Assembly: GCA_025355445.1 (NCBI GenBank)
Contig: JANXZQ010000524.1
Span: 1-48,186 of the forward strand
Direction of reading: 5' to 3'
DNA from: Gammaproteobacteria bacterium
GTDB lineage: Bacteria > Pseudomonadota > Gammaproteobacteria > Steroidobacterales > Steroidobacteraceae
Length of the DNA stretch: 48,186 bases
In this document: positions 11,469 to 39,110 of the stretch, piece after piece
Numbering within the stretch: the first letter of the stretch is position 1
Layout of the letters: every line of letters begins with the position of its first letter
Notes under the pieces: model-generated
The model's input: only the letters and a program-made list of their open reading frames with translations
The model's database searches: none
Told to the model about the DNA's origin: nothing
Translations under genes and position numbers: made by a program

Positions 11469-12025
11469 ATCTCAGAACGATAAAATCGCGTTGCGTATTG
11501 CGGGTTATAGCGATACAACGACGCATCTGCTCGGCAGTTCGCTTCGCCGGCAGATCCGTGACGGTTCACCCGACCGCGTGGGTCTCGCGGCGCAGCGTAA
11601 TACGCGTGAATGGCGGAGGCTCGATTGCCATCGGCAAAGACTGCGAAATTCATCCGTTTTCCATGCTAATGACTCATGGCGGGCATATCCGTCTGGGCGA
11701 CAATTGCAGCGTGAATCCGTTCACCATCATTTACGGCTGCGGGGGCGCTTACATCGGCAACAATGTGCGTATCGCGGCACATGTGGTGATCATTCCGGAG
11801 AATCACAATCCCGGCACGGATGCGACGGCGCTGCATTTGTCCGGCACGACGCGCAAGGGCATTCGGATCGAAGATAATGTCTGGATAGGCGCAGGAGTAA
11901 AAATTCTCGACGGGGTGAGCATCGGCAGAAATGCAGTGATCGGAGCCGGAAGCGTCGTCTCCCGCTCGATTCCCGCAAACGCAACCGCGGTGGGCGTGCC
12001 TGCCCGCGTCCTGAAGAAGCGCTGA
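11465..12025 (+). CDS. hexapeptide-repeat acyltransferase (186 aa)
   Basis: Left-handed beta-helix O-acetyltransferase of the WbbJ/Cat type. Imperfect hexapeptide repeats run from about residue 50 to the end (SIAIGKDCEIHPF, IRLGDNCSVNPF, IEDNVWIGAGVKILDGVSIGRNAVIGAGSVV). The catalytic-type histidine is in PENHNPGTD, and the protein ends in the common AVGVPARVLKKR. The start is GTG at 11465 in a GTGA overlap with the transferase gene. It probably acetylates a hydroxyl of a sugar in the repeat unit before polymerisation; the acceptor sugar is unknown. Confidence 0.9.
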   Translation: MNLRTIKSRCVLRVIAIQRRICSAVRFAGRSVTVHPTAWVSRRSVIRVNGGGSIAIGKDCEIHPFSMLMTHGGHIRLGDNCSVNPFTIIYGCGGAYIGNNVRIAAHVVIIPENHNPGTDATALHLSGTTRKGIRIEDNVWIGAGVKILDGVSIGRNAVIGAGSVVSRSIPANATAVGVPARVLKKR

Positions 12026-20037: not shown

Positions 20038-21693
20038 TCATTGCCGAGGGAGAGTCCAGGAACCCGCGGTAGTCGTGACGCCGCTTGCATGCTCGATGGC
20101 GTTGCCTTTGCCGGCATCCGCGGAGCGATTGGCGTATGCGGAACCTTCGCCTTGCAGGCCGCCGATGTGGTTGCATCGGCAAACCACATGCCGCGCCTGG
20201 GCGCCGATACGGACTGCCGGCCCCTGAGTCGTCTCGGGAATTCCGTCATGGGCCTTTTCGTAGCCGAAGCGGTTGCCCTCAATGATGAATGCCGCGCACA
20301 AGTCAATCTCGATGGCCGCAAAGATTCCCGGCCTCGCTGTGCTGTTACCGGCCATGAAGCAATTGCGGACAAACCCCATCTTCTCCCGCGGCGGATTCCA
20401 TATGGAAACTTGTTGCCCGATTTCCATGCCCTCGTTCCTGCAGCCGAAGATGTCCACGCTTTCGACGGTCATGCGCGTGCACTCGTGAGTCGTAACGATG
20501 CCGCGCGTGAAGTTCGTGATGCGTCCGTTACGCACGTCCATTTTTTCCGCGCTGGATTGAATTCCATATCCGCCGTCGAGGTTTGCGCCGTCAATGGCAA
20601 AGCCGTCAATGGAGCAGTCGATGAGATCGGTCTGGTCGCTCGCGGAATTCTGGGTTCCATGCAGATAACCGCCGGTTTTCGCGGAAGCACCGGCAAACAC
20701 GATCGCAGTGCCGGTAATTGCCGTTCCAACAACGTTGCGCAGTGATATATTCCGCTTCGCGCCCACTTGGTCGACGTGCAACCATGGCCGGTAGAACGCC
20801 GCTTCTCCCGGCGAACTCTGAAACAGGACTTTTGCCGACTTGACGTAAAGTCCGTCAATCGAGCAGTTGTACGCCCCGCTCAGCCCAAATGCCCAGCCAT
20901 GCTCGATGTCCAGATTGGTGATATTGATGTTGCTGAATCGCATGTTGTGCGCGTGCGAAGTCTGTCTCTGGTCCATCCGGGGCTCGTTGGTGGCCCATCC
21001 AAATTCATATGCGATACCACCGTAGAGCGCGCCGCCACCGTCGATCCAGACATTCTCCATGACCACGCCGTTGAGACCGCCGATCATGAATATGCCGCTG
21101 CCGCTTTTTGTATTGGAGGAAATTCGCAAATTCCTCACGACGATGTTTCCCATGGGTGTTGCGAGCAGGCTGTCGTAGATCGGGCTGAAGTAGCGGCTGT
21201 CGCCGCCGCGGTTGCCGAAGGTCAGGGCATTGCCCGCATTGGTACCGCCGCCGCCCATCTGATAGTCGACGATGATTGAACCGTTGCAAATGGAAAAGTC
21301 ACGCACTGCAAAGATGAAGCCGGAGTTGGTGTCGCCTTTCTCGCCGTCCTTGTGAAAATGCAGCGTGCTGCCCTGGAGGTCGACATGGGTGCCGTCCTGA
21401 AACGCAATGATGTCGTTCAGATAATAGACGTCGCGCCCGGTTGCATTGGGAAAGCAAATGCTGCCGTGCAAAGCGCCCCCGGGCGCGCACAGCGCCTTCA
21501 GCGCGCGAGTATTTTCCGCGGCGGCAGCTTCGTTGTCGGGCACCACCCCATACCTGCGCACATCACCGGGGAAGTACTCCGGCGACGCGCGATTGCCGCC
21601 GGCGGCAGCGGGTGCGGAGGGATCAGCGGCAGCGAGCGCCCCGGCGGATGTGGCCCCAAGAGTTCCTGCAAGAAAGCTGCGTCTCGTGTTCAT
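20038..21693 (-). CDS. Tat-exported right-handed beta-helix protein (551 aa)
   Basis: An N-terminal twin-arginine signal (TRRSFLAGTLGATSAGALAAA, residues 3 to about 23) predicts folded export. The mature part resembles pectate lyase-superfamily/parallel beta-helix proteins: the entry motif DVRRYGVVPDNEAAAAENT, then many short repeats such as NIVVRNLRISSNT, GVVMENVWIDGGG and FSNINITNLDI. ATG 21693 puts the signal at the very N-terminus; an in-frame ATG at 21714 only adds seven residues. Such proteins are polysaccharide lyases, hydrolases or epimerases, and could trim or modify the exported glycan; no catalytic residue set can be assigned by eye. Confidence 0.82.
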   Translation of the reverse strand: MNTRRSFLAGTLGATSAGALAAADPSAPAAAGGNRASPEYFPGDVRRYGVVPDNEAAAAENTRALKALCAPGGALHGSICFPNATGRDVYYLNDIIAFQDGTHVDLQGSTLHFHKDGEKGDTNSGFIFAVRDFSICNGSIIVDYQMGGGGTNAGNALTFGNRGGDSRYFSPIYDSLLATPMGNIVVRNLRISSNTKSGSGIFMIGGLNGVVMENVWIDGGGALYGGIAYEFGWATNEPRMDQRQTSHAHNMRFSNINITNLDIEHGWAFGLSGAYNCSIDGLYVKSAKVLFQSSPGEAAFYRPWLHVDQVGAKRNISLRNVVGTAITGTAIVFAGASAKTGGYLHGTQNSASDQTDLIDCSIDGFAIDGANLDGGYGIQSSAEKMDVRNGRITNFTRGIVTTHECTRMTVESVDIFGCRNEGMEIGQQVSIWNPPREKMGFVRNCFMAGNSTARPGIFAAIEIDLCAAFIIEGNRFGYEKAHDGIPETTQGPAVRIGAQARHVVCRCNHIGGLQGEGSAYANRSADAGKGNAIEHASGVTTTAGSWTLPRQ

Positions 21694-21960
21694 GGGTTGT
21701 CTATCCGATTGCATGCAAGATCCGCATAGTAACGTATGCCCATGCGCGGGACGCTCCGTAGGTTATCTATTGTCCCATCCGCCGCAAGAGCCGCTTCGTG
21801 ATATTCTTCGAGTGAGCGCAGGTCCCCACGAGTACTGATACCAGATGTTCCGAGTTACTTAGTGCTTGCGACAGCGTGTTGAACTTCGCATACCGGCACG
21901 GCTCGTCGCGACCGTTGTCGTTGACCCATTCCGCGAGACACGGCGGCCAGCCGTACTGAC
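21694..21960. other. divergent intergenic region (267 bp)
   Basis: This is the longest gene-free stretch. It separates the minus-strand beta-helix/acyltransferase unit from the plus-strand flippase/DprE-like operon, so it should hold promoters for both. On the + strand the best -35-like hexamer is TTGCGA near 21868, with only a poor CATACC-like -10. On the - strand TACTAT near 21730 is -10-like without a clear -35. I found no strong hairpin with a T run. A 70-codon minus frame (21767-21979) overlaps the flippase start and has no recognisable content, so I do not call it a gene. Confidence 0.35.
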
Positions 21961-22929
21961 ATGACTTCGCGTCATGCAAAGGCCTTCTTAGGATTCGCGA
22001 TCGGCGGCTTTTTCCTATATCTGGCAGTCCGTCACGCCAGTGCCGCCGACATCGTCAGGATTCTCGGGTCGGCGAAAGCCGGGTGGCTCGCGATTGCGGT
22101 GTTGGTCTACTGGTTGGAGCTGGGTGCGCGCGTGATCCGTTGGCACGCACTTCTATCCCAGACGGGGAGAACCGTTGCGCTTAGGAATGCGTCTTCGGCA
22201 TTTATCATTGGCTATGCAGCGAATAACGTGCTGCCCGCCAAGCTCGGAGAATTGGTTCGTGTCGACCTGATCAGCCGCATGTCGGACATCCCCCGGCTGG
22301 CGTCGCTGGGGACCGTCGTGGTTGAAAGAATTTTCGACATCCTTCTCATACTGCTGATGGCCGGAATCAGCATTGGAATGTTGGTATTACCGGACACTAT
22401 TGACCTTGCTCGACTTCGCGGCGGCATGATGGTGCTTGGCGCCTTCACAGCGCTCCTTCTGATCATGTGCATGTACTTTGGCCGGAACGGCATCAGCAAA
22501 CGCTGGAAATTGGGCGGCGCGATGCACGCTCGCTTGGGCAACTTGGTTGGCGGAATACAAATTCTGGCAAATCCCAAACAGTGCGGTCGAATCTTCGTCT
22601 ATTCGGTGATGATCTGGGTGCTAAACGGCGTGGCCATGTGGCTGATAGTGTTTGCACTTGGAGTAAGTCTGTCGCTGCTGCAGACTCTGCTGTTGATGGG
22701 CATCGTTGGACTTGCAGCCGTGCTTCCGGCGCCGCCCGCGGGCTTGGGGGTACTCCAATATGCGTTTGCCCTGGTATTTGAACTTTTGAGGAAGCCGGGC
22801 GCCATCGGATTGGTGGCTTCGGCAGCGGTGCAAGTCGCTTTACTTGGCAGTGTCACTCTGGTAGGAGCATTTTTATTTTTCGCAATTATCGTTCCCGTAT
22901 CAGCTAAGAAGTACGAGCTAGATGGATAA
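21961..22929 (+). CDS. flippase-like UPF0104 / lysylphosphatidylglycerol synthase TM-domain protein (322 aa)
   Basis: Integral membrane protein with roughly seven to eight hydrophobic segments, from GFAIGGFFLYLAV at the N-terminus to LLGSVTLVGAFLFFAIIV at the C-terminus. The family signatures are LELGARVIRWHALL, AFIIGYAANNVLPAKLGELVRV and ERIFDILLIL, as in MprF N-terminal domains and AglD-like proteins. The ATG is the first in frame, and the gene heads a new + strand operon. It overlaps the DprE1-like gene by 8 bp (ATGGATAA). A role in moving a polyprenyl-phosphate-linked sugar across the membrane is inferred from the neighbours; the family is not proven to flip in general. Confidence 0.86.
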   Translation: MTSRHAKAFLGFAIGGFFLYLAVRHASAADIVRILGSAKAGWLAIAVLVYWLELGARVIRWHALLSQTGRTVALRNASSAFIIGYAANNVLPAKLGELVRVDLISRMSDIPRLASLGTVVVERIFDILLILLMAGISIGMLVLPDTIDLARLRGGMMVLGAFTALLLIMCMYFGRNGISKRWKLGGAMHARLGNLVGGIQILANPKQCGRIFVYSVMIWVLNGVAMWLIVFALGVSLSLLQTLLLMGIVGLAAVLPAPPAGLGVLQYAFALVFELLRKPGAIGLVASAAVQVALLGSVTLVGAFLFFAIIVPVSAKKYELDG

Positions 22930-24244
22930 TAGTCTACAGCGCCGCACCGAATTCGTGTCCTTCGATGGATCAATTCGCCTGACGACGGTGCATCAGCGAC
23001 CGGACCGTTTCCGGCACCTGGACAATATTCTCGATCGCAAACTGATCGCCCGGGGTGGCGGCTACGCCTACTCGGCGGCCAGTTTCGGCGGGAAATCCTG
23101 CGCGCTTGAAATGACGGCGTTCGATCGCCTGCTCGAGTTCGACCCGGCGAAGTCTGTGCTAAAGGTGGAAGCAGGCGCCAGGATCATCGACGTACTCAAA
23201 TGGGCGACTCGTCGCGGCCTGCAGGTGCCGGTCGTCCCCGGGTATCCGTTGGTGACCATCGGCGGTTGCATTGCAGCCGACGTTCATGGCAAGAACCCTT
23301 GGCGCGATGGTACCTTTGCAGACTGGGTACGGGCTGTCACAATTTTTCACCCGGACAAGGGGTATCTGAGCGTGAGCTCAGCGAGCAATCCTGCGCTATT
23401 CGAGATGACCTGCGGTGGATTCGGTTTGACGGGCGTGATCGTCGACGCAACTCTGGAGCTGACGACGCTCCCGGCCACCGAGGTGGATCTCATGTTCCAA
23501 GCCGTGCGCAGCCTTACCGAGGCAGTTGAGCGGCTTGAATCGAGTACCGAAGACTTCTGCTACAGCTGGCACGACACGGCGCCGGGGAAGAGCTTTGGCC
23601 GTGGTCTTGTGGTGTCCGGACGGTGGATACCGGGTGAACATGGCGATCCTTTATTCCGCTACCGGCCGATGAATGCATGGACACGCGCAGCGCTCCCCAT
23701 TAGTCTTTGGAATTCGCTAACCGTGAGTTGTGCAAATGAACTCTTTTACCAGATAAATGGCCGCTGGAAACGGCGACGCCGGATCAACCTGTTCGACGCC
23801 GCATTTCCACTCGCAACGAATGGGGCTTATCTTGCAGGATTCGGCCGTGCCGGCCTGCGCGAATTCCAGATACTGCTGGACTCGGCGCGCGTCCGTCCCT
23901 TCATCCATACGCTCGAACAGCTTGCGCGTCGTGAAAGGCCGCCGCTCGTTATGGCCTCTGTCAAGCGCTTCCAAGGGAGACAGCGCTCTCTAAGCCCTAC
24001 CGGCGCCGGGTATCTCATCGCAGTCGATCTCCTGCCAGGCAAGGCAGCTGACCGTCTCATGGCGCAAATCGACGGCCTGATGCTGGATATGGATGGTCAG
24101 CCCAATCTGTCGAAGGATTCCCGGATCGGCTTTGAAGTTGCGACGCGTTCGATCCGTCACTATGCGACATTTGCAGAGGGGCTTCGCCAATATGATCCAT
24201 CCCGGAGATTCTGTTCGGAACTGTCTGAACGGATCGGACTTTGA
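22922..24244 (+). CDS. DprE1-like FAD-dependent oxidoreductase (440 aa)
   Basis: FAD-binding (PCMH/p-cresol methylhydroxylase-type) oxidase related to mycobacterial DprE1, which oxidises the 2'-OH of decaprenylphosphoryl-ribose. The N-terminal FAD domain has LIARGGGYAYSAAS, then VPVVPGYPLVTIGGCIAADVHGKN, very close to the DprE1 motif including the HGKN. GGFGLTGVIVDATLEL follows, and the C-terminal substrate domain ends in YDPSRRFCSELSERIGL. By eye the DprE1 cysteine attacked by benzothiazinone drugs is replaced by A367 (LIAVDL), and the active-site lysine before VDP appears as Q. No signal peptide is present. It likely acts with the next gene as a two-step epimerase on a polyprenyl-phosphate sugar. 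Confidence 0.85.
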   Translation: MDNSLQRRTEFVSFDGSIRLTTVHQRPDRFRHLDNILDRKLIARGGGYAYSAASFGGKSCALEMTAFDRLLEFDPAKSVLKVEAGARIIDVLKWATRRGLQVPVVPGYPLVTIGGCIAADVHGKNPWRDGTFADWVRAVTIFHPDKGYLSVSSASNPALFEMTCGGFGLTGVIVDATLELTTLPATEVDLMFQAVRSLTEAVERLESSTEDFCYSWHDTAPGKSFGRGLVVSGRWIPGEHGDPLFRYRPMNAWTRAALPISLWNSLTVSCANELFYQINGRWKRRRRINLFDAAFPLATNGAYLAGFGRAGLREFQILLDSARVRPFIHTLEQLARRERPPLVMASVKRFQGRQRSLSPTGAGYLIAVDLLPGKAADRLMAQIDGLMLDMDGQPNLSKDSRIGFEVATRSIRHYATFAEGLRQYDPSRRFCSELSERIGL

Positions 24245-24963
24245 GCTACCTAATTGTGGGCGCCTCTACCGGCCTCGGTCGGGCGCTGGCGGAGGAATAC
24301 GCCGGCGCCGGATTTGACCTGGTGCTCGTTTCGCGGGATCCGCGCGATATCGAGCCCCTCGCGGCGCATTTGCGGATCCGATTCGGGATTCTCGCCATTG
24401 CGTTGGCCGTGGATCTGTCCCACGAGATCGACCACCTCGTCCGCGTTGATGATGCTCTGGCTCAAGTATCTCCGCTTTGCGGACTATTGCTCCCCATTGG
24501 TGCCAGCGATCCTGAGGATAAGATAGGGCTTTCCGGCGATCTGATGATGCAGCTAGTAAATTCCAATTTTTTGAACCCTTGCAGGCTCTTGAATGCGCTT
24601 CTACCGCGGCTTCGCGGCGGCGAGGTGGTCGGATTTGGCAGCGTTGCCGCCCTGCGCGGCCGTACCCGCAATGCCGCATATGCCGCATCGAAAAGCGCAC
24701 TCATGACCTATTTCGAAGGTCTACGGCATTATGGCGGCGCGGCAGGTGTTGCTGTGCGCTTTTATATCCCAGGCTACCTCGACACCAATCTGGCCTTTGG
24801 CCAGAACTTACCGTTCCGTGCTGCCGATGCGCGGAGCCTCGCGCGCCGAGTGCGAGCGGATACCGGCTTGACATGCACCCGATACTACCCGGCCTACTGG
24901 CGATTGATCGTATCGCTGGTATCGCTGGTTCCCTGGAGCATCTATCGCAGTCTGAAGTTTTGA
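24241..24963 (+). CDS. DprE2-like short-chain dehydrogenase/reductase (240 aa)
   Basis: NAD(P)-dependent SDR. The cofactor motif GASTGLGRAL is at residues 7-16, the catalytic serine is in VGFGSVAALRG, and the Y-x3-K pair is in AYAASKSAL; the ending SLVPWSIYRSLKF gives a hydrophobic tail as in DprE2. Next to a DprE1-like oxidase it is the expected partner that reduces the 2'-keto intermediate to the epimer. The start is TTG 24241 in a TTGA overlap with the DprE1-like stop, supporting fixed stoichiometry. The exact lipid-linked sugar is not known. Confidence 0.85.
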   Translation: MSYLIVGASTGLGRALAEEYAGAGFDLVLVSRDPRDIEPLAAHLRIRFGILAIALAVDLSHEIDHLVRVDDALAQVSPLCGLLLPIGASDPEDKIGLSGDLMMQLVNSNFLNPCRLLNALLPRLRGGEVVGFGSVAALRGRTRNAAYAASKSALMTYFEGLRHYGGAAGVAVRFYIPGYLDTNLAFGQNLPFRAADARSLARRVRADTGLTCTRYYPAYWRLIVSLVSLVPWSIYRSLKF

Positions 24964-24965
24964 CC

Positions 24966-25712
24966 ATGGATGCGTCCGGACCAGAAGTCAGTCTCTTCTT
25001 TCCCGTCTACAAGGACGAACGAACCGTTAGGACCGTTGCCGAGCGCGCGATCGCGTTGCTTGAAGACATCGCGAGCCGCTACGAAATCATCATCGTGAAC
25101 GATGCTTCCCCCGATAGCAGCGGGGTGCTGGCGGACGAACTGGCCCGTGAATATCCGCAGATCCGGGTAATTCATCATCACCGAAACTTGGGTTACGGCG
25201 CGGCGCTGAAGTCCGGAACCGCGGCCAGCAGGTTCGAATGGGTGTGCATGATCGATGGCGACAACGAGTATGATGTATTTGAGCTGAAGAAGATGCTCGC
25301 AGTTCGCCGCTACTATCTGTTAGTGATCGCATTTCGATACCGGAAGCTGTATTCGACCAGACGAATTCTCATATCGTTTGTCTACAACGCAGTACTTCGG
25401 GCGATATTTAATAGTCCTTTTCGGGATATATCGACGGGCATCCGCGTGATTCATCGATCCATACTTGAATCTATTCCGCTGACCTCCAACAGCCCATTCA
25501 TCGGCGCAGAGCTCGCCCTCAAGTCGATGTTGAGAGGCTACCCGGTGGGTGAAGTCGGAATTCAGACGTTTCCGCGCGATTTTGCCCAAGGGTCAGCCAC
25601 GTCGATGAAGAATATCTTGTTGACGATACGCGACCTTTTGCGCGTGAGGCGCGAGGTATTCTCGGATTCCTATGATCTTCCGCAGGGGCGGGGCCGCACC
25701 CGCAATCCATGA
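24966..25712 (+). CDS. GT2 glycosyltransferase, DPM1/polyprenyl-phosphate sugar synthase-like (248 aa)
   Basis: GT-A inverting transferase of family 2. The N-terminus is SLFFPVYKDERTVR; EIIIVNDASPDSS and IDGDNEYD carry the nucleotide-binding acidic residues, followed by RDISTGIRVIHRS. Length and lack of C-terminal membrane segments fit soluble dolichyl/undecaprenyl-phosphate hexose synthases. ATG 24966 is chosen; TTG 24960 would give another TTGA overlap and cannot be excluded. A frame reaching back to 24579 is an out-of-frame shadow of the SDR gene. Placed between DprE1/E2-like enzymes and a GT-C-like protein, it would supply the polyprenyl-phosphate sugar donor. Confidence 0.86.
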   Translation: MDASGPEVSLFFPVYKDERTVRTVAERAIALLEDIASRYEIIIVNDASPDSSGVLADELAREYPQIRVIHHHRNLGYGAALKSGTAASRFEWVCMIDGDNEYDVFELKKMLAVRRYYLLVIAFRYRKLYSTRRILISFVYNAVLRAIFNSPFRDISTGIRVIHRSILESIPLTSNSPFIGAELALKSMLRGYPVGEVGIQTFPRDFAQGSATSMKNILLTIRDLLRVRREVFSDSYDLPQGRGRTRNP

Positions 25713-26380
25713 AGGATCTTCAGACGTTATACAGAGTGAGGTTCTCCGAGGCTGCGCGGGTGCGCAAGGACCTGGTCTGGCAAGCGCTTTGCGAGGGGTT
25801 CTTCCAGCAGTATGTCGCTTCGACCGACACCGTGCTGGAAATTGCTTCGGGCTACGGCGAGTTCATTCGCCATATCGTTGCGTCACGTAAGATCGCCGTG
25901 GATTTGAATCCCGAAGCCGGGGACAGCCTGCCGGCCGAAGTCGAGTTCCACCTCACTAGTGCGTCGCGACTTACGATGATTGCTGATGGTTCGGTTGATG
26001 CCTGCTTCAGCAGCAATTTTTTCGAACATCTCCCGAGCAAGGAGGTGATGGACGAAGTGCTGGAGGAGGTGCTTCGAGTCCTGCGCCCCGGCGGCGTGTA
26101 CGTCGTCATGCAGCCGAACATCCGGTACGAACCCGGCCGCTACTGGGACTACTATGATCACGTTCTGCCTTTGAGCCACCTGTCGTGCCGTGAAGCTTTC
26201 GCGAAAGCCGGATACGAGGTGGTGGAGGTCATCGACCGCTTTGTGCCATTTTCCACCGACAGTCGCTTGCCGCAACATCCATTGCTGGTGCGCCTATACC
26301 TCAAGTGCCGTCCCCTGTGGAAATGGATGGGCGGACAGTTCGTGTTGGTAGGCAGAAAGCCCCGGGGAGCGCGCACATGA
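25709..26380 (+). CDS. class I SAM-dependent methyltransferase (223 aa)
   Basis: Methyltransf_11-like. Motif I is VLEIASGYGEFIRHIV, an unusual ASG in place of GCG. The acidic strand is IAVDLNPEAGD, and DACFSSNFFEHLPSKEVMDEVL and LRPGGVYVVMQPNIRY are the downstream motifs. The C-terminal LVRLYLKCRPLWKWMGGQFVLVGRK is typical of methyltransferases encoded beside DPM1-like GT2 genes. The start is an ATGA overlap with the GT2 gene and the end an ATGA overlap with the next. It may methylate the sugar or lipid-linked intermediate. Confidence 0.88.
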   Translation: MKDLQTLYRVRFSEAARVRKDLVWQALCEGFFQQYVASTDTVLEIASGYGEFIRHIVASRKIAVDLNPEAGDSLPAEVEFHLTSASRLTMIADGSVDACFSSNFFEHLPSKEVMDEVLEEVLRVLRPGGVYVVMQPNIRYEPGRYWDYYDHVLPLSHLSCREAFAKAGYEVVEVIDRFVPFSTDSRLPQHPLLVRLYLKCRPLWKWMGGQFVLVGRKPRGART

Positions 26381-27858
26381 GACTTGGTGCGACTGACGGC
26401 GATCGGGCCGGCCGGTGGTGCAGGGCGGATTGCGCGACGCTTGCAGCGATCGCCGGTGCAACCGTACTAACGCAGCTGCTGTTCTATCAGTCAAATGAGG
26501 GCGTGGGCGTTCTCGGCTTCATCCTGCGGCTCGCAGCCTGGTTGCGAGGCGGGCAGATGCCGGAGGTGGTGACCTGGCCGGCGTGGGGCTATGCCTGGGT
26601 GGTTGCGTGGTTGCCTTCCTTGAACTGGGTCATAGTCTTGCAGGCGACGCTCGGCGCCTTGGCGCTCGCCGCGCTCGCGGCGAGGTTGCGTGCGACATTG
26701 CCGGCCTACGGCACCCCGATCGCCATCCTATGCGTACTCGCGATTCCATGGCACAACCTCGAGGTCACGCCATATCCCTCGGCGCCGGCGGCGTCTTTGG
26801 CGCTGCTAGGACTGTTGGCGCTGGACAGGGCTTTGGCGAAAGGCATTTTGTGGTGGGCATCGGCAGCCGGGATACTGCTGGGCCTCGCGCAGAACTTCCG
26901 GACGGAAACCGTGCTGCTGCCCACTTTCCTTGGAATCGTTCTCTATGTGCTGCGTCGCTTCGTCAATCCTCAGATTCCATCTCTCAAACCAATGTGGGTC
27001 GTCATTGCGGTGGCCTTCGCAATGCAGATACCGTGGGCGCAGTTCTATCACGAGCATACGGGCCGCTATTCGTTGACAGAGTCGAATTTCGGCCATGTGC
27101 TGTATGTTTCGCTCGGCAGCAACTTGCACAATCCTTGGGGCATCGAAGCGAACGACCAAGGCGCCTACAAGGCCGTAAAGGATGCCGGCTATTCATTCTC
27201 GTCCCTGTCCGAGCAGGGAAACAAGTTTCTTGTGGGTCTCGCGATCGAGAAAGTGAAGGAGCATCCGTCGGGGCTGATCGGGCGATCCTTGCAACAGCTG
27301 CGTAACACGGTATTGGCGCCGTTCAATTGGGGCGAACCCCGTCTCGGTACGGCCGGGGCGCTGCATCTGGACGTTCTGAGACAGGAGCTGAAACTTCGAC
27401 TCGGAGTCGGCGTAAACGTCCTCAAAGTGCGCGATTATCAGAGCCGCGGTATCGCACTGGAGGCGCAGAAAGACACACTGGCGATAGCCGCATTGGTCTA
27501 CCAAAGTGTCATGACGGCTGTGGGAAGCATCGTTCTCGCACTCGGTATTCTCGGCTTCGGCTTCGTGCTAATGCGCCACGAGATGCGTCCCGCCTCGCCG
27601 TTGCTGTGGATTCTTGCCGCCACAGCCGCATATAAGCTGTTGCAGAACATTCTGTTGTTTTATACAGTGAATTATCTGAACAGCGTTTATCCATTGTTCA
27701 TTCCATTCGCGGTACTCAGCGTGAAATTCATCCGCGACGTCTTGCATCGACGCTGGACGAAAGGCGATCCGGCATTGCCGAACGTAGCGCGAGGCCTCTC
27801 GACCAATGCCGAAGCCAAGGGGTCCCGATCGCCAAGGAGTTCGGCGCCAGCTAGATAA
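26377..27858 (+). CDS. polytopic membrane protein, GT-C glycosyltransferase-like (493 aa)
   Basis: About ten to eleven hydrophobic segments, e.g. LAAIAGATVLTQLLFY, ILCVLAIPW, GIVLYVLRRF and a C-terminal cluster ending LYTVNYLNSVYPLFIPF-like. A large hydrophilic loop around residues 220-340 carries NFGHVLYVSLGSNLHNPWGIEAND. The topology and loop resemble ArnT/PMT (GT-C) enzymes that use polyprenyl-phosphate sugars in the periplasm, although a clear DD/DE motif in the first loop is not visible. The start is ATG 26377 in an ATGA overlap. It stops 3 bp before the stop of the convergent methyltransferase gene. Function is inferred from neighbours and topology. Confidence 0.7.
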   Translation: MRLGATDGDRAGRWCRADCATLAAIAGATVLTQLLFYQSNEGVGVLGFILRLAAWLRGGQMPEVVTWPAWGYAWVVAWLPSLNWVIVLQATLGALALAALAARLRATLPAYGTPIAILCVLAIPWHNLEVTPYPSAPAASLALLGLLALDRALAKGILWWASAAGILLGLAQNFRTETVLLPTFLGIVLYVLRRFVNPQIPSLKPMWVVIAVAFAMQIPWAQFYHEHTGRYSLTESNFGHVLYVSLGSNLHNPWGIEANDQGAYKAVKDAGYSFSSLSEQGNKFLVGLAIEKVKEHPSGLIGRSLQQLRNTVLAPFNWGEPRLGTAGALHLDVLRQELKLRLGVGVNVLKVRDYQSRGIALEAQKDTLAIAALVYQSVMTAVGSIVLALGILGFGFVLMRHEMRPASPLLWILAATAAYKLLQNILLFYTVNYLNSVYPLFIPFAVLSVKFIRDVLHRRWTKGDPALPNVARGLSTNAEAKGSRSPRSSAPAR

Positions 27859-27861
27859 TGG

Positions 27862-28698
27862 TCAGCTACTGGTCGGCTTGCGAAGAAGAACTTTCCGGCT
27901 GAAAAATGTACGAAGTACCCAACCGAAAATCGGCAACACGCGATTGAGTCGACCAAGCAGGCGGATGATCGGTCGTGAATGCAAATCCAGGGTGTCCTGA
28001 GTCAACCACTTCCATTCAAAGCCAATATCCTCCCAGATCACCTTGTAGGCTGAGTTGCTGATGTAGTTCAAGTTCTCTACAGCCCGAAATGTATTCCACC
28101 GCGCGGTCTTTGTGGAATTGAGGCTTGCTTCTCTTTGAAATTCGTTGCGAATACCGAGGAGAGCCCACAATTTAAACCACCAGTATTGAATGATCACGCC
28201 GCCAAACGGCACATAATTATGCGGCTCTATTAAACAATAGGGTCCAGGAAAGGCGTGAATCGCGACACCCCCTGGTTTCATGATCCGATAGATTTCGCGC
28301 CACACCGGCACTTGATTGTGTACGTGTTCGAAGACTTCTTCCGAAAAAACAAAATCGAATGTGTCGCTGCTGAATGGCAGAGTTCCACTCGTCATGCCGA
28401 AGTAAAATCGATGACGTTCTTCGGCCGACCGGTGTTTTATATGGTCAAAAGCGTCGAACCCGCACGTATTGGTGAAGCCTCGATCGACAAGCGCAAATAC
28501 CGCCGAGCCCGCGCCGCAGCCGAAATCCAGAATGGCTGCTGCGGGAGTAAGCTTCGCCCCATTCCTGGCCAACAAATTCACAAATCGATCCAGAAATACC
28601 GTGGTCACGTTCGCGTCTGCCTTTGGCCACCAGAGCTGGTTCTGTTTCGCAGTATAGTCAATATGGAGTGGATGCGCCCAATTCGCATCAAACCGCAC
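27862..28698 (-). CDS. class I SAM-dependent methyltransferase, AT-richer than neighbours (278 aa)
   Basis: Methyltransferase with motif I AILDFGCGAGSAVFAL, CGFDAFDH, FDFVFSEEVFEHVHNQVPVWREIYR and MKPGGVAIHAFPGPYCLIEPHN; the C-terminal part carries aromatic-rich segments (IIQYWWFKLWALLG). The start is GTG 28698; no ATG, GTG or TTG lies between it and the upstream in-frame stop at 28738. The gene is a single minus-strand insert between two plus-strand operons, and its DNA is visibly richer in A and T than the flanks, suggesting separate acquisition. Target unknown; O-methylation of a sugar or of the glycan end is possible. Confidence 0.86.
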   Translation of the reverse strand: MRFDANWAHPLHIDYTAKQNQLWWPKADANVTTVFLDRFVNLLARNGAKLTPAAAILDFGCGAGSAVFALVDRGFTNTCGFDAFDHIKHRSAEERHRFYFGMTSGTLPFSSDTFDFVFSEEVFEHVHNQVPVWREIYRIMKPGGVAIHAFPGPYCLIEPHNYVPFGGVIIQYWWFKLWALLGIRNEFQREASLNSTKTARWNTFRAVENLNYISNSAYKVIWEDIGFEWKWLTQDTLDLHSRPIIRLLGRLNRVLPIFGWVLRTFFSRKVLLRKPTSS

Positions 28699-28788
28699 GG
28701 TGCCTACGCGGTGTATGATCCGTCCTCCGGAACTCGGCTAGTCGAATACCGAATCCTTCGACGTACCAAGTGAGTGTAAACCATTTAA

Positions 28789-30660
28789 ATGTGCGGCATC
28801 TGCGGTCTATACGGCTTCCCATCTTCCCAAGAGCTTGACCGCACGGTGCGGCGAATGACGCAGACCATCGCGCACCGTGGTCCGGACGGGGAAGGCACAT
28901 TCGTCGGTGAGGGGGTGGCGCTAGGGCATCGGCGGTTGAGCATCATCGATCTGTCGAGTGCGGGATCTCAACCGATGACGTTTGGCGCCGCGACGGTGGC
29001 GTACAACGGGGAGGCCTACAATTTTCCTCAGTTGCGCAGGGAACTGGAAGATCTCGGACATGACTTCAAAGGCCACTCGGATACAGAGGTTCTGCTGCAT
29101 GCATACCAGGCTTGGGGGCTTGCCGGACTCGACCGGTTGGAGGGTATCTTCGCATTTGCCCTCTGGGACTCCGCTCGCCGCCGACTGATCTTGATGCGCG
29201 ACCGACTGGGCATCAAACCGCTGTACTACGCCTGGCGGGGTAAACAGCTTGCCTTCGGTTCGGAGATCAAGGCGGTTATCGCTGCCGGCGGGATTGATCT
29301 GCGCCTGGACGATCAGGCCCTGATGGAATATCTGTGGTATGGCAATCCGTTCGAGGATCGAACAATCTATCGCAACGTGCGGTCGCTGAGGCCCGGGTGC
29401 CGAATGGTCATTGAGGATGGGCACGCTCGATTGGAGTCTTGGTGGAAGCTCGAATCGTGGCTGGGCCGTTCGGAGCGGCAACTGAATTCTCACGAGGCAA
29501 CGATAGCGGTGCGTGAGTCTGTGGATGCCGCCGTTGGCCGACAACTCGTGGCGGATGTGCCGGTCGGGATTTTTTTGAGCGGTGGCGTGGACTCCTCCAG
29601 TATTGCCGCGTCGGCGGCGATTGCCAGCGGACGCCGTTTGGCCAGCTTTTCGGTGGGATTCGACTACGACAAGGGCATCAACGAGCTGCCCAAAGCCCGG
29701 CGCGTTGCCCAAGCATTGGGGCTGGACCATCACGAGTTGCGGATCCGCGGCGGCGCGCTGGAAGATACCATATCGGCGTTGGTGCAAGTGCACGACGAAC
29801 CATTTGCGGATGCGGCAAACATTCCCTTGTATCTGCTTGCCCGGGAATTGCGCGGCACGATCAAGGTCGTTCTGCAGGGTGATGGCGGCGATGAAATGTT
29901 CGCGGGCTACCGACGCTATTCCATTCTGCGTGCGGCCGGACTCTGGCGTCTGTGGCCCCGGCGACTCGAGGCCGCACTTCGCGCGGGGTTCGGCAGCCGC
30001 GGCGCGCGGCTTGCGCGTATGGGCGCCGCTGCGGGACATGCCGATCCGGCATTGCGCATGGCGTTGCTTCTCACTGTCGAGACGCTGCGCGATCCTCCCA
30101 CCGCGGTCATGACGGATGCGGCGCGGCAAGAGCTGGAGGCGTGTGCGGATCCATTCGCGGCGTACCGGCGGTGCGCGTCCCGCTTTGCGGACTACGATCC
30201 GGTGCAGCAAATGCTGTTGACGGACATCTCGTTGCAGCTGCCGTCTCAATTTTTGACCAAAGTTGATCGCGCAACCATGGCGTACGGAATCGAAGCGCGG
30301 GTACCGCTGCTGGATGAAGGCGTGGCCTCGCTGGCGGTCGGCCTGCCGGCGGCTCTCAAGGTTCGTGCCGGTCAAAACAAGGTCGTACTGCGCGATGCCA
30401 TGCGCGAGCGGCTTCCGCCTGAAATACTGGACGCACCGAAGACGGGCTTTGGCGTGCCTTACGAGGAGTGGCTGCGTGGAGCGCTGCACGGATTTGCGCG
30501 CGCTGCAATTCTCGACCGCGGCTTCATCGAACGCTTCAGGCTGGATCGCACCCGCCTCGAGAGCGCCCTCGCCGAACATCGCTCGCGGCGCCGCGACCGG
30601 GGATTTCTGCTTTGGAAGTTATTGCAATTGTCTCTATGGTCGCGACAGCACCTGGCGTAG
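28789..30660 (+). CDS. asnB: AsnB-type glutamine amidotransferase (623 aa)
   Basis: Glutamine-dependent asparagine synthetase family. The N-terminal Ntn amidotransferase domain starts MCGICGLYGF with nucleophile C2 and contains TIAHRGPDGEG and FNGE-like VAYNGEAYN. The C-terminal synthetase domain has the ATP loop FLSGGVDSSS near residue 264, then QGDGGDEMFAGYRRYS and KVDRATMAYGIEARVPLLD. In O-antigen clusters such enzymes (WbpS-like) amidate hexuronic acids rather than make asparagine, which is the likely role here. The start is supported by C2, which must be the first residue after Met removal. It is divergent from the AT-rich methyltransferase. Confidence 0.92.
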   Translation: MCGICGLYGFPSSQELDRTVRRMTQTIAHRGPDGEGTFVGEGVALGHRRLSIIDLSSAGSQPMTFGAATVAYNGEAYNFPQLRRELEDLGHDFKGHSDTEVLLHAYQAWGLAGLDRLEGIFAFALWDSARRRLILMRDRLGIKPLYYAWRGKQLAFGSEIKAVIAAGGIDLRLDDQALMEYLWYGNPFEDRTIYRNVRSLRPGCRMVIEDGHARLESWWKLESWLGRSERQLNSHEATIAVRESVDAAVGRQLVADVPVGIFLSGGVDSSSIAASAAIASGRRLASFSVGFDYDKGINELPKARRVAQALGLDHHELRIRGGALEDTISALVQVHDEPFADAANIPLYLLARELRGTIKVVLQGDGGDEMFAGYRRYSILRAAGLWRLWPRRLEAALRAGFGSRGARLARMGAAAGHADPALRMALLLTVETLRDPPTAVMTDAARQELEACADPFAAYRRCASRFADYDPVQQMLLTDISLQLPSQFLTKVDRATMAYGIEARVPLLDEGVASLAVGLPAALKVRAGQNKVVLRDAMRERLPPEILDAPKTGFGVPYEEWLRGALHGFARAAILDRGFIERFRLDRTRLESALAEHRSRRRDRGFLLWKLLQLSLWSRQHLA

Positions 30661-34968: not shown

Positions 34969-36939
34969 ATGTGCGGCATCGTCGGAGTGCAGGGGGATTT
35001 CCCCGCAGGCCTGCTGAAACGGATGACTGATAGCATCGCGCATCGCGGCCCGGACGGCGAGGGTGAGTTGTGGATTGATGTGCCGAACGAGCCGCGAACG
35101 GGGCTCGGGCACCGGCGGCTCGCCATCATCGATCTTTCCGCCGCCGGCTGTCAGCCCATGGCGCTGCGCTGCCGGGATGCAGTTGCGGACGCCGCCGTGA
35201 CGATGGTGTTCAACGGCGAGATCTACAACTACCGCGAATTGCGTGCCGAACTGACCCAGTCCGGGCATCGGTTCGCGACACAAACCGATTCTGAAGTCTT
35301 GTTGCATCTCTACGAGCGCGACGGGCTGGATATGCTGAGCCGCCTGAACGGGATTTTCGCGCTTGCCATTCATGATGGTCGGACTTCCGGCCGGCCGAAC
35401 GGCGTCGAACGCGGCTCAATATTTCTGGCGCGCGATCAGGCCGGCGTGAAGCCCCTGTATTTTTCCAGCACTCCGCAAGGGTTCTTGTTCGCTTCCGAGA
35501 TCAAGGCGCTTTTGTGCCATTCGGCGATCGATCGCGAGATCGATCCTTTGGCCTTGCACCAAATGCTGGCCTACCTGTGGACGCCGGCGCCGCGCACGAT
35601 GCTGCGCGCGGTGCGAAAGCTGGAGCCTGGCTGCGCGATGCTGGTCCATCGCAAGGGGATCGTAAAACAGTGGCGCTACTATCGCTTGCCCTATGACGGC
35701 CAAACGGATTTGCGGCCGCGCGCGGCTATTGCCGAAGAATTGCAGTCACGGGTGGAGCAGGCCGTCAGGCGTCAACTGGTCGCCGATGTTCCCGTGGGAG
35801 CTTTCTTGTCCGGCGGCCTGGATTCCAGCGCCGTCGTTGCCATGATGCGCCGCGCCTTACCCGATAAAAGAATCCAGTGTTTTTCCATTGGCTTTGACGA
35901 ACATGTCGATGATGAAGGCAATCCCGCGGATCTGCCCTATGCGCGTCGTGTCGCCAAGCATTTGAATGTCGAGCTGGAAGAGATCCGGATCGATGCGACA
36001 TCCATCGATCGCCTCGAGGAAATGGTTGCTCTGCTCGACGAACCTCAAGCCGATCCGGCGCCGATCAATGCGCTGTTCATCGCCGAGCGGGCGCGTGCCA
36101 TGGGTATTCCCGTGCTCCTGTCGGGAGCCGGCGGCGACGACATTTTCAGCGGTTATCGGCGCCATCGCGCGCTGAAATTCGAGCGTTGGTGGGCATGGCT
36201 TCCGCACAGCGTGCGTGCCGCAATTCAATCCGCGGCTGTGGGAGCGGCGATGGGCCGGGGCCGGCGGCAGGGTGGGGTCATCGGGCGGCGCCTGACCAAG
36301 ATGTTTGCTCACGCCGGTGAAGATCCCGAGCGGCGGCTGATCAGCTATTTTTGGTGGAGTCCGGACGCCCTGCGACGAAATTTATATTCGCGGGAATTTG
36401 CGGCGCAAATCGGCGCAGCGGACGCCGCTGAGCCGCTGCTGTCGAGCCTCGCCGAAATTCCCGGCGAACACGCGCCCCTACAGCGCATGCTGTTTTTGGA
36501 AACGCGGCATTTTCTCGCCGACCACAATCTGAACTACACGGATCGGGCCGGTATGGCTGCCGGTGTCGAGGTAAGAGTGCCGCTGCTCGATCTGGATTTG
36601 ATCGATTTTGCGGCCAGGATCCCTTCATCGATGAAGCAGAGCGGTGCCGAAGGCAAGTCGATCTTCAAGGAGGCGATGCGCGGCGTACTGCCGGATGAGG
36701 TGATTTATCGGCCCAAGAGCGGATTCGGGGCACCGCTGCGGCGCTGGCTCAGGCAGGAGTTGCGCGCGCGGGTGGAGGACACATTGGATCCGGCGGTGGT
36801 GCGCCGCCGCGGTTTTTTCGACCCAGGCGCAGTGCGTGCGCTGATCGACGATGACCAGAATGGACGAATTGACGGCAGCTATACGATATTTGCGCTCATT
36901 TGCTTCGAACTGTGGTGTCGTCGATTCATCGATGTTTAA
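34969..36939 (+). CDS. asnB: second AsnB-type glutamine amidotransferase (656 aa)
   Basis: Same family as the gene at 28789 but clearly divergent. It starts MCGIVGVQGDFPAG with nucleophile C2, then SIAHRGPDGEGE and MVFNGEIYNYRELRAEL. The synthetase ATP loop FLSGGLDSSA is near residue 280, with SGAGGDDIFSGYRRHR and NYTDRAGMAAGVEVRVPLLDLDLIDFA downstream. The GAGGDD variant replaces GDGGDE of classical AsnB, as in O-antigen and exopolysaccharide amidotransferases. It heads a plus-strand operon with the bi-domain oxidoreductase and heparinase-like genes. Likely amidation of a uronic-acid-type sugar; two copies suggest two amide sites or different substrates. Confidence 0.92.
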   Translation: MCGIVGVQGDFPAGLLKRMTDSIAHRGPDGEGELWIDVPNEPRTGLGHRRLAIIDLSAAGCQPMALRCRDAVADAAVTMVFNGEIYNYRELRAELTQSGHRFATQTDSEVLLHLYERDGLDMLSRLNGIFALAIHDGRTSGRPNGVERGSIFLARDQAGVKPLYFSSTPQGFLFASEIKALLCHSAIDREIDPLALHQMLAYLWTPAPRTMLRAVRKLEPGCAMLVHRKGIVKQWRYYRLPYDGQTDLRPRAAIAEELQSRVEQAVRRQLVADVPVGAFLSGGLDSSAVVAMMRRALPDKRIQCFSIGFDEHVDDEGNPADLPYARRVAKHLNVELEEIRIDATSIDRLEEMVALLDEPQADPAPINALFIAERARAMGIPVLLSGAGGDDIFSGYRRHRALKFERWWAWLPHSVRAAIQSAAVGAAMGRGRRQGGVIGRRLTKMFAHAGEDPERRLISYFWWSPDALRRNLYSREFAAQIGAADAAEPLLSSLAEIPGEHAPLQRMLFLETRHFLADHNLNYTDRAGMAAGVEVRVPLLDLDLIDFAARIPSSMKQSGAEGKSIFKEAMRGVLPDEVIYRPKSGFGAPLRRWLRQELRARVEDTLDPAVVRRRGFFDPGAVRALIDDDQNGRIDGSYTIFALICFELWCRRFIDV

Positions 36940-36977: not shown

Positions 36978-39110
36978 ATGCAACAACTTCTGCAGTCTCT
37001 GGCCGACGGACGAATCGTCCTGGAAGAGATACCCGCCCCCAGCCCCTCATCGTCCGCAATATTGATTCGAACCTCGCGGTCGCTGATCTCCTCCGGCACC
37101 GAGCGCATGTTGGTCGAGTTCGGCCGCGCCAACTGGATTGAGAAAATCCGCCAGCAGCCGGAGAAGGTGCATCAGGTATTGGACAAAATGCGCACCGACG
37201 GTGTGCTCTCCACGCTCGAAGCCGTGCGCAGCAAGCTCGATCAACCGATCCCTCTCGGCTATTGCAACGTTGGCAGTGTCGTCGAGGTCGGCGCGGGTGC
37301 GCCGGAATTTACCGTGGGCGAGCGCGTCGTTTCCAACGGCAGCCATGCGGAATTCGTGGCCGTCGGGCACAACCTCTGCGCGCACGTTCCAGAGGGTGTC
37401 AGCGACGATGAGGCGGCCTTTGTCCCGCTCGCGGCGATTGCGTTGCAAGGATTGCGTTTGGCCGGCCCCGCGATCGGCGAACGTTTCTGCGTCATCGGCC
37501 TGGGCCTCATCGGATTGATCGCCGTTCAGCTTCTGCGCGCCAACGGCTGCAAGGTGCTGGGTGTGGATCCGGATCCGGCGAAATCCGCGCTCGCGGCGGC
37601 ATTCGGCGCCGACGTGGTCGATGTGGGCGCCGGTGAAGATGTACTGAAGGCCGCCGAGCTTGTTACGCGGGGACAGGGCATCGATGCGGTGCTGATTACG
37701 GCTGCGACCGACAGCAACGAACCCGTACAGCAGGCGGCGCGGATGTGCCGCCAGCGCGGACGGATCGTTCTGATTGGGGTTACGGGACTCGAATTGAATC
37801 GCGCAGACTTCTACAAGAAAGAGATCTCCTTCCAAGTGTCGTGTTCCTACGGCCCCGGGCGTTATGACGAGGTATACGAGGGGCGCGGGATCGATTACCC
37901 GTACGGCCTGGTGCGCTGGACCGAACAGAGAAACTTTCAGGCCGTTTTGCAATTGATGGAATCCGGACAGTTGAATGTGCGGACGCTGATCAGTCATCGA
38001 TTTGCGTTCGGCGCGGCCGGCGCGGCCTATGACTTGCTGGCCGATCGAGCGCAGTCCTCGCTGGGAATAGTGCTCGAATACAAGCAGGGGGCCGATGCAC
38101 CGGTCATCGTGCGCAAATTGCCATTGCGGACGGCGCCTTCGGACTCACACGTGGCGAGTCCGGCGGCGGCATTTGTCGGTGCCGGAAATTACGCGGGAAG
38201 AATTCTAATTCCTGCATTTCGGGCCGGCGGCGCGCGACTCTTCGCCGTGACGTCGGCAAACGGGATAAACGCTGCGCGCTACGGGCGCAAATACCAATTC
38301 GAGTCCGCTTCCACGGAGGTGGACGGCGTACTTGCAGCGCCGGAGGTCGATTTTGTCGTGATCGCGACTCGCCATGATTCCCATGCGCAATTCGTGCAGC
38401 GAGCACTTGCGGCGGGCAAGCATGTATTTGTCGAAAAGCCGTTGGCGCTGGTTCAATCCGACGTCGACGTCATCGAGTCCCTGCTTCGCGCCGACGGGCG
38501 GCAAACGCGGATGCTCATGATTGGCTTCAATCGACGATTCGCGCCGCTGGCGTTGCGAATGAAGAGCTTGCTCGGCGCAGTCCGTGAGCCCAAGACCTTC
38601 GTAATTACCGTCAACGCGGGCGCGGCTCCGGCCGGACACTGGACCGTCGAGTCTGCCGGGGGTGGACGTATCATCGGCGAGGCTTGTCATTTCGTTGATT
38701 TGCTGCGATTCCTCGCCGGGTGCCCGATTACGGGCAGCGTGGCGCGCCGTACGGGGAGTGAGGGTGCAAATTCTCATGACCCTTCGGTATGCATTACATT
38801 GAGTTTTGCCGACGGCTCGCTGGGTACGATTCACTATGCAACGGGGGGTCACGCCTCTTTCCCCAAGGAGCGCGTCGAAGTATTTGCAGGTGGACGGGTA
38901 CTGCAGCTCGACAATTTTCGGCGGTTACGCGCCTTTGGCTGGCCCGGCTTCAAGTCGCAACGATTGTGGCGCCAGGACAAAGGGCAATTCGCCTGCGCTG
39001 CGGCCTTCGTCAGCGCCATCAAGACTGGAGACGTATCGCCGATTCCGCTCGACGAGATTCTCGAAGTGAGCCGCGCGACGATCGCAGTGAGCGAAGCGGC
39101 ACGGCATTGA
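36978..39110 (+). CDS. bi-domain oxidoreductase: zinc-type alcohol dehydrogenase + Gfo/Idh/MocA (710 aa)
   Basis: Two dehydrogenase domains in one chain. Residues 1 to about 365 are an MDR/alcohol dehydrogenase-like domain: SLISSGTERML, PLGYCNVGSVVEVGAG, FVPLAAIALQGLR and the cofactor motif VIGLGLIGLIAVQLL. From about residue 398 a Gfo/Idh/MocA domain follows: FVGAGNYAGRILIPAF, DFVVIATRHDSHAQF and the signature VEKPLAL near residue 487. This fusion is regularly found beside heparinase II/III-like and AsnB genes in exopolysaccharide clusters; its reaction is not established. It ends in a TTGA overlap with the heparinase-like gene. Confidence 0.9.
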   Translation: MQQLLQSLADGRIVLEEIPAPSPSSSAILIRTSRSLISSGTERMLVEFGRANWIEKIRQQPEKVHQVLDKMRTDGVLSTLEAVRSKLDQPIPLGYCNVGSVVEVGAGAPEFTVGERVVSNGSHAEFVAVGHNLCAHVPEGVSDDEAAFVPLAAIALQGLRLAGPAIGERFCVIGLGLIGLIAVQLLRANGCKVLGVDPDPAKSALAAAFGADVVDVGAGEDVLKAAELVTRGQGIDAVLITAATDSNEPVQQAARMCRQRGRIVLIGVTGLELNRADFYKKEISFQVSCSYGPGRYDEVYEGRGIDYPYGLVRWTEQRNFQAVLQLMESGQLNVRTLISHRFAFGAAGAAYDLLADRAQSSLGIVLEYKQGADAPVIVRKLPLRTAPSDSHVASPAAAFVGAGNYAGRILIPAFRAGGARLFAVTSANGINAARYGRKYQFESASTEVDGVLAAPEVDFVVIATRHDSHAQFVQRALAAGKHVFVEKPLALVQSDVDVIESLLRADGRQTRMLMIGFNRRFAPLALRMKSLLGAVREPKTFVITVNAGAAPAGHWTVESAGGGRIIGEACHFVDLLRFLAGCPITGSVARRTGSEGANSHDPSVCITLSFADGSLGTIHYATGGHASFPKERVEVFAGGRVLQLDNFRRLRAFGWPGFKSQRLWRQDKGQFACAAAFVSAIKTGDVSPIPLDEILEVSRATIAVSEAARH

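Follow-up and report, generated by a model that had tools for sequence, protein, structure and literature searches.

The 48,186-nucleotide contig JANXZQ010000524.1 of a Gammaproteobacteria bacterium (family Steroidobacteraceae, assembly GCA_025355445.1), analysed whole and referred to below as the window, carries six adjoining genes, P1 to P6, at positions 21961–27858 of the + strand. Two of these, P2 and P3, encode relatives of mycobacterial DprE1 and DprE2, and the pair belongs to a distinct clade apart from ordinary DprE1-like genes. We consider it reasonably likely that this pair epimerises a sugar loaded onto polyprenyl phosphate by a family 2 glycosyltransferase (GT2), and not polyprenyl-phosphate ribose; the locus probably works as a lipid-linked epimerase of the DprE1/DprE2 type. 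The proposal draws on a conserved gene association, on the separation of the clade, on the family of the adjoining glycosyltransferase P4, and on the absence of a UbiA-type phosphoribosyl-polyprenol synthase near all five loci of the clade and from the available sequence of the other four genomes with the module.

P2 (22922–24244, + strand, 440 residues) is a DprE1-like flavin adenine dinucleotide (FAD) oxidase. It matches the NCBIfam DprE1 model NF053785 over residues 38–440 with 187.7 bits, below the equivalog cut-off of 500, and matches solved DprE1 chains with an E value of 6e-35. P3 (24241–24963, + strand, 240 residues, TTG start) is a DprE2-like reductase of the short-chain dehydrogenase/reductase (SDR) family (PF00106, 84.8 bits; PRK07102, 99.5 bits, under the cut-off of 267), and its Ser134, Tyr147 and Lys151 are kept in 5/5 clade members. 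A DprE1/DprE2-like pair had been proposed here in the first-pass annotation of the window, and is borne out by the DprE1 matches of P2 and by the Ser-Tyr-Lys set of P3. Gly13 of P3 is glycine in all five clade partners versus alanine in 67 of 77 ordinary partners.

Relatives of P2 were sought at E ≤ 1e-20 in 396 genomes of the order, the source genome included, and a P2-like match was present in 29 of them, again counting the source. The matches outside the source genome are 27–34% identical to P2, those at 32–34% being partial and from one family; from this sample 30 loci were examined (29 P2 matches outside the source genome, plus G018). A single-protein query of a contig collection gave no relative, but an alignment query did, and the best 80 of at least 582 relatives were taken. 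Adding the window and one P4-derived locus brings the set to 112 rows, none of which was dropped: five form the window's P2 clade, five an odd single-family group, and 102 are termed ordinary. A plasmid search with P2 gave 66 records, 34 of them from Rhizobium, with 27–32% identity among the 30 matches listed. The odd group (L062, L067, L071, L072 and L075) consists of DprE1-like proteins of about 490–530 residues from one family of the order, with altered equivalents of His132, Gln334, Lys367 and Cys387; no UbiA or SDR gene was found within 6 kb of these five loci, only two of which have 5 kb on both sides. Four Saccharopolyspora loci (L105, L115, L118 and L126) have two tandem DprE1-like genes ahead of the SDR gene.

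The P2 clade comprises the window, Schlegelella koreensis (L077), G407 (locus L159), a Rhodospirillales metagenome-assembled genome (MAG; L078) and a Bacteroidales MAG (L079), and spans at least two phyla. The S. koreensis P2 is about 44–45% identical to that of the window. The clade is recovered with a Shimodaira–Hasegawa-like approximate likelihood ratio test value of 100 in a quick tree of all 112 rows, and at 100/100 in a second, more careful tree. That tree holds 55 rows (the five members and 50 of 99 others), eight long or odd rows having been left out.

The P2 pocket sets the clade apart as well. In M. tuberculosis numbering, derived from the alignment of P2 with DprE1, the equivalents of His132, Lys134, Gln336, Lys367 and Lys418 (H122, K124, Q316, K348 and K398 in P2) are kept in 5/5 clade members, and that of Tyr60 in four of the five, with leucine in L078. 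At the Gln334 site, all five members have glutamate (E314 in P2) versus glutamine in all 102 ordinary rows. The Thr118 site is tyrosine throughout the clade (Y108), versus threonine in 101/102 ordinary rows; the Phe313 site is alanine (A293), versus Phe or Tyr in 99/102; and the Trp323 site is tyrosine (Y303), versus tryptophan in 99/102. The Phe313/Tyr314 pair has become Ala-Ala in P2. In the available text of a docking study, the DprE1 cavity residues include Gln334 and Tyr314, and Phe313 is a docking contact (PMC6768143); residues 315–329 are termed the active-site loop in the available text of another report (PMC9993113). Our guess is that alanine in place of bulky pocket residues would suit a larger sugar. 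The sugar itself is probably a pyranose such as a hexose. P2 falls short of a ribose enzyme in its DprE1 score and in its pocket residues, and locally also in its donor.

P4 (24966–25712, + strand, 248 residues; PF00535, 73.8 bits) is a GT2 of the ArnC/DPM1/GtrB kind by profile and fold. Neighbourhoods were scored as genes within 6 kb, and 73 ordinary loci flanked on each side by 5 kb or more served as a full-flank subset. A P4-type GT2 lies near 4/5 clade loci versus 0/102 ordinary ones, and the orthologues in the three other clade loci are 54–70% identical to P4, with values of 69%, 62% and 54% in one comparison. Against PDB sequences, a P4 profile matches ArnC (4–215), dolichyl-phosphate mannose synthase (DPMS; 3–185) and GtrB (5–169) over most of the domain; chondroitin synthase and GalT1 match in the N-terminal half only. 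Dolichyl-phosphate hexose transferase and ArnC are among the lower-ranking NCBIfam models matched, every NCBIfam score of P4 falling far short of the model's cut-off. The predicted structure of P4 (predicted local distance difference test [pLDDT] 71.6; predicted template modelling score 0.71) has ArnC, DPMS or GtrB as each of its 25 best PDB matches, which are only partly independent, with a mild bias, because the alignment behind the model contained the ArnC-like protein of L078. That locus has no P4 orthologue; two genes upstream of its P2 is a 319-residue GT2 that contains hydrophobic segments. At E ≤ 1e-4 this GT2 matches no solved structures but those of ArnC, DPMS and GtrB, the ArnC and GtrB matches covering nearly its whole length. 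Taken with the four P4-type enzymes, this places all five pairs near a GT2 of the polyprenyl-phosphate-loading kind.

The order P1-P2-P3-P4-P5 is kept in Schlegelella (identities 35% for P1, 48% for P3, 70% for P4 and 71% for P5), P6 being missing from that stretch, and the order P2-P3-P4-P6 is kept in the Bacteroidales MAG, from whose stretch P1 and P5 are missing. In G407, a single contig from another class, P4 is divergent to P2-P3, and a 514-residue membrane protein and P5 follow. Conservation of the gene order had been suggested earlier as a check on the module; P2-P3-P4 is indeed kept in Schlegelella and the Bacteroidales MAG, but the full six-gene order was found only in the window among the examined loci. 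P4 is rare among the searched genomes. In 398 genomes of the phylum, a search at E ≤ 1e-50 returned only the source genome and G407, where the copy adjoins the clade P2/P3 pair and P5. Within the order of L079 (295 genomes), the order of L077 (220) and the class of G407 (48; the last two searched with a P4 profile at 1e-60), those three genomes themselves gave the only P4 matches, and plasmids gave none at 1e-40; a P4 alignment gave 54 loci in viral contigs, the best at 37% over part of the protein and most of them matched in the N-terminal half. This patchy distribution suggests transfer.

A UbiA-type phosphoribosyl-polyprenol synthase lies near 78 of the 102 ordinary loci (61/73 with full flanks) and an SDR gene near 77 (54/73 with full flanks). 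The idea, already present in the first-pass annotation, that a GT2 stands in for the UbiA enzyme is supported by the clade, in which 0/5 loci have UbiA within 6 kb and 5/5 have a GT2. At the level of whole genomes, both controls with an ordinary triad (G007 and G802) showed a phosphoribosyl-polyprenol synthase; the four module genomes other than the source, two of them MAGs, yielded none. The single-contig genome G407 (99% complete) contains one UbiA-family protein, of the quinone type; G799 (Schlegelella) has two, of the quinone and haem O types; the MAG G801 has three, which are haem O-like, menaquinone and GGGP-transferase-like, and none of the phosphoribosyl kind; and no UbiA-family protein was found in the 2.5 Mb examined of the MAG G800. 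Other components are common to the two kinds of locus. Relatives of P5 occur in two GT2-type modules (71% and 50% identity) and beside two UbiA-type DprE1 modules (50% and 46%), and a 660-residue membrane-protein family occurs in L077 and in seven UbiA-type loci, as expected if the loading enzyme alone had been swapped.

Several results weigh against a GT2-loaded substrate, and some of them fit rival explanations. In the PDB, the P4 profile scores highest with 3bcv, a putative GT2, and in NCBIfam the window's P4 scores highest with PgaC/IcaA; both matches cover the N-terminal half only. By hydropathy, P4 has neither a C-terminal membrane anchor of the GtrB/ArnC type nor any transmembrane segment. 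Polyprenyl-phosphate GT2 members without an anchor exist, for example DPM1. Three of the four P4-type copies were found via P2, so G407 is the sole independent co-occurrence. Such database matches, together with the other glycosyltransferases in the window, would suit P4 as an ordinary cytoplasmic GT2 that extends a glycan, its neighbourhood being coincidental in a large glycan locus. We regard this as highly unlikely, given that P4 accompanies this DprE1 clade in four distant genomes and that its best fold matches, as well as the matches covering most of its domain, are lipid-phosphate glycosyltransferases.

Local absence of a UbiA-type synthase is no proof either, since 12 of the 73 full-flank ordinary loci also have none nearby. 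The earlier statement that no such synthase is present holds for the window contig, on which none was found, but not for the source assembly (fragmented into 548 contigs; completeness 84%, contamination 6%): contig C259 carries a HAD-UbiA synthase (PRK08238, 553.8 bits, cut-off 351) that resembles decaprenyl-phosphate phosphoribosyltransferases. The genome's other UbiA-family proteins are haem O and quinone enzymes. With the C259 synthase present, P2/P3 could be supplied in trans, and the locus could be one part of a split but otherwise ordinary pentofuranose pathway, in which the C259 enzyme would make polyprenyl-phosphate ribose, P2/P3 would convert it to arabinofuranose (Araf), and P4 would be unrelated. 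The available text of PMC11127046, which assigns DprE1/E2 homologues to Araf-containing glycans, agrees with such a pathway. It nevertheless seems unlikely to us, because the C259 synthase already has its own epimerase-type neighbour, the four other module genomes, two of them MAGs, yielded no synthase of this kind, the P2 pocket is unlike that of all 102 ordinary DprE1 rows, and P4 is kept beside the pair. In the C259 locus itself (L023, 9000–26565 of the contig), positions 6608–11971 hold the HAD-UbiA gene beside genes for an extended-SDR epimerase-type protein, a 612-residue protein without a family and a protein with an FGE-sulfatase domain. This locus looks like a second, separate pentofuranose pathway of the type described for Citrobacter.

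The remaining points concern the clade and its substrate. The clade is small (five members, four of them P4-type); the 112-row tree carried a long-branch warning, and L079 is still long in the 55-row tree. Its P3 partners cluster weakly (56/71), and its gene set varies, P1 being near 2/5 loci, P5 near 3/5 and P6 in 2/5. Support for a GT2-loaded sugar consists of sequence, association and phylogeny, from which we infer every catalytic step. Sequence does not decide the substrate, and P2 also has weak matches to soluble sugar oxidases, so that P2/P3 might act on a soluble substrate, either a nucleotide sugar or a sugar phosphate, and P4 transfer the epimerised product. We judge this distinctly unlikely: the only full-length PDB match of P2 is DprE1, the others being restricted to the FAD-binding half, and the GT2 paired with the clade member L078 contains hydrophobic segments and aligns with ArnC and GtrB nearly end to end.

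In the GT2-loaded pathway that we favour, P4 would move a sugar from a nucleotide sugar onto polyprenyl phosphate in the manner of ArnC, DPM1 and GtrB, as its family, profile and fold suggest. P2, with FAD, would then oxidise one hydroxyl to a ketone, which P3 would reduce from the opposite face to give the epimer. Homology to DprE1/DprE2, the kept catalytic residues and the changed pocket point to this step, and position C2 is suggested by analogy. P5 (25709–26380, + strand, 223 residues) is an S-adenosylmethionine-dependent methyltransferase (PF08241, Methyltransf_11, 46.6 bits) that might methylate, most simply, this sugar. P1 (21961–22929, + strand, 322 residues) is a polytopic membrane protein of the LPG_synthase_TM/UPF0104 kind (PF03706, 141.7 bits against a cut-off of 33.4; TIGR00374, 68.4 bits) and a candidate carrier of the lipid-linked sugar; co-occurrence suggests that it would take this sugar across the inner membrane. 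P1-like genes also lie near 25/102 ordinary DprE1 loci, and no solved relative of P1 was found at E ≤ 1. P6 might finally hand the sugar to a surface glycan. A more specific proposal is that this DprE1/E2 relative epimerises a polyprenyl-phosphate hexose (pyranose), its pocket having been reshaped to take a six-membered, GT2-loaded sugar that is then methylated and exported; we see an even chance that it is correct.

P6 (26377–27858, + strand, 493 residues from the ATG at 26377) is recognised as a polytopic membrane protein by hydropathy only, with five hydrophobic segments in a simple scan. It had been labelled GT-C-like, a label deduced from a polytopic protein at the operon end without a family match. 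This label was not confirmed: Pfam and NCBIfam gave no match to P6 at E ≤ 0.001, nothing meaningful turned up among weak Pfam or PDB-sequence matches, and the P6 model, from a two-sequence alignment, has a pLDDT of 37.6. P6 may be regarded as a candidate terminal glycosyltransferase. A relative occupies the same operon position in the Bacteroidales module (26% identity over 213 residues); among the four other module genomes a relative is present in G801 only, and a search of the order's 395 other genomes at E ≤ 1e-5 found none. The 514-residue protein of L159 and the 660-residue protein of L077 were considered as P6 relatives and rejected, neither having a BLAST match to P6 at E ≤ 0.1. The UbiA-DprE1-SDR loci L098 (5177–19035) and L066 (2760–11726) hold a P5 relative and the 660-residue membrane family and, by eye, a small GtrA-like membrane protein and an FAD amine-oxidase-like protein.

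All six open reading frames (ORFs) were confirmed. P1 and P2 overlap by 8 bp, P2 and P3 by 4 bp (TTGA) and P4 and P5 by 4 bp (ATGA), P3 and P4 are separated by a gap of 2 nucleotides, and P5 and P6 overlap by 4 bp (ATGA) provided that P6 starts at 26377 instead of the listed 26305. With four of five junctions overlapping by 4 or 8 bases and the fifth a 2-base gap, the layout suggests that the genes are transcribed as one unit and that their translation is coupled; no promoter-like site on the + strand emerged from a simple sigma-70 scan of positions 21600–28800. The first-pass annotation was thus right about the tight packing of the six genes, and Pfam agrees with its GT2 and methyltransferase labels for P4 and P5 and, as family membership, with its flippase-like label for P1.

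Elsewhere in the window, a single ORF (1906–3978) fuses cytidylyltransferase and class III aminotransferase domains and shares its stretch with a PIG-L deacetylase (3987–4670) and NeuB (7725–8819), together resembling a nonulosonic-acid-like pathway. The glycan locus also contains two asparagine-synthase-type amidotransferases (28789–30660 and 34969–36939) and, at 36978–39110, an ORF that combines a zinc alcohol dehydrogenase domain with a Gfo/Idh/MocA domain; a heparinase II/III-like protein comes next.

The module joins parts of two known pathways, of which a joint description was not found. If P2/P3 do act on a GT2-loaded sugar, the DprE1/E2 step, known for pentofuranoses, would be a plug-in compatible with GtrB-type loading, and bacteria could diversify their periplasmic glycosylation donors on the lipid itself. 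If the sugar is a hexose, a surface-glycan sugar could arise that needs no nucleotide-sugar form, and DprE-type lipid-linked epimerisation would have a second branch, represented by this clade and shared between phyla. Glu314, Ala293, Tyr108 and Tyr303, together with the isolate Schlegelella koreensis, offer a handle on sugar choice in DprE1-type enzymes, which attract interest as drug targets.

The complete module had been described as uncharacterised. DprE1/E2 homologues in Gram-negative lipid-linked pentofuranose pathways are in print (PMC11127046), so that only the GT2-fed version looks new. Among the titles and abstract openings listed, in a search that most subscription journals lay outside, no GT2-loaded DprE1/E2 module was found; two matches to a search for DprE1 and GtrB (PMC12826051 and PMC7389260) name DprE1, in their available text, in the references only. 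The available text of PMC11127046 describes UbiA-loaded pentofuranose systems whose UbiA synthase is without similarity to GtrB-type enzymes, and its authors state that they are aware of no further epimerases in side-chain systems of O-polysaccharides.

With mycobacterial DprE1/DprE2, the pair described here shares an adjoining FAD oxidase and SDR reductase, homology over the full length of P2 and the five kept residues; it differs in having a GT2 beside it instead of a phosphoribosyl-polyprenol synthase, and glutamate at the Gln334 site of P2. The GtrA/GtrB/Gtr(type) systems of O-antigen glucosylation and the ArnC/ArnT system resemble the module in that a GT2 of like kind makes the lipid-phosphate sugar. 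To our knowledge, these systems include no oxidase/reductase epimerase pair. Gnu differs from P2/P3 in being a single enzyme that acts at the 4-position of a sugar held by a pyrophosphate link. It is similar in that it epimerises a sugar on undecaprenyl, being reportedly the 4-epimerase of undecaprenyl-pyrophosphate-linked N-acetylglucosamine (PMC3682973). The three-component pentofuranose systems of Citrobacter, as presented in the available text of PMC11127046, have in common with the module a lipid-phosphate donor, an optional epimerase, a carrier and a terminal transferase; loading is of the UbiA type there and by a GT2 here, and the proposed carrier is of the MATE type there and a PF03706 protein here.

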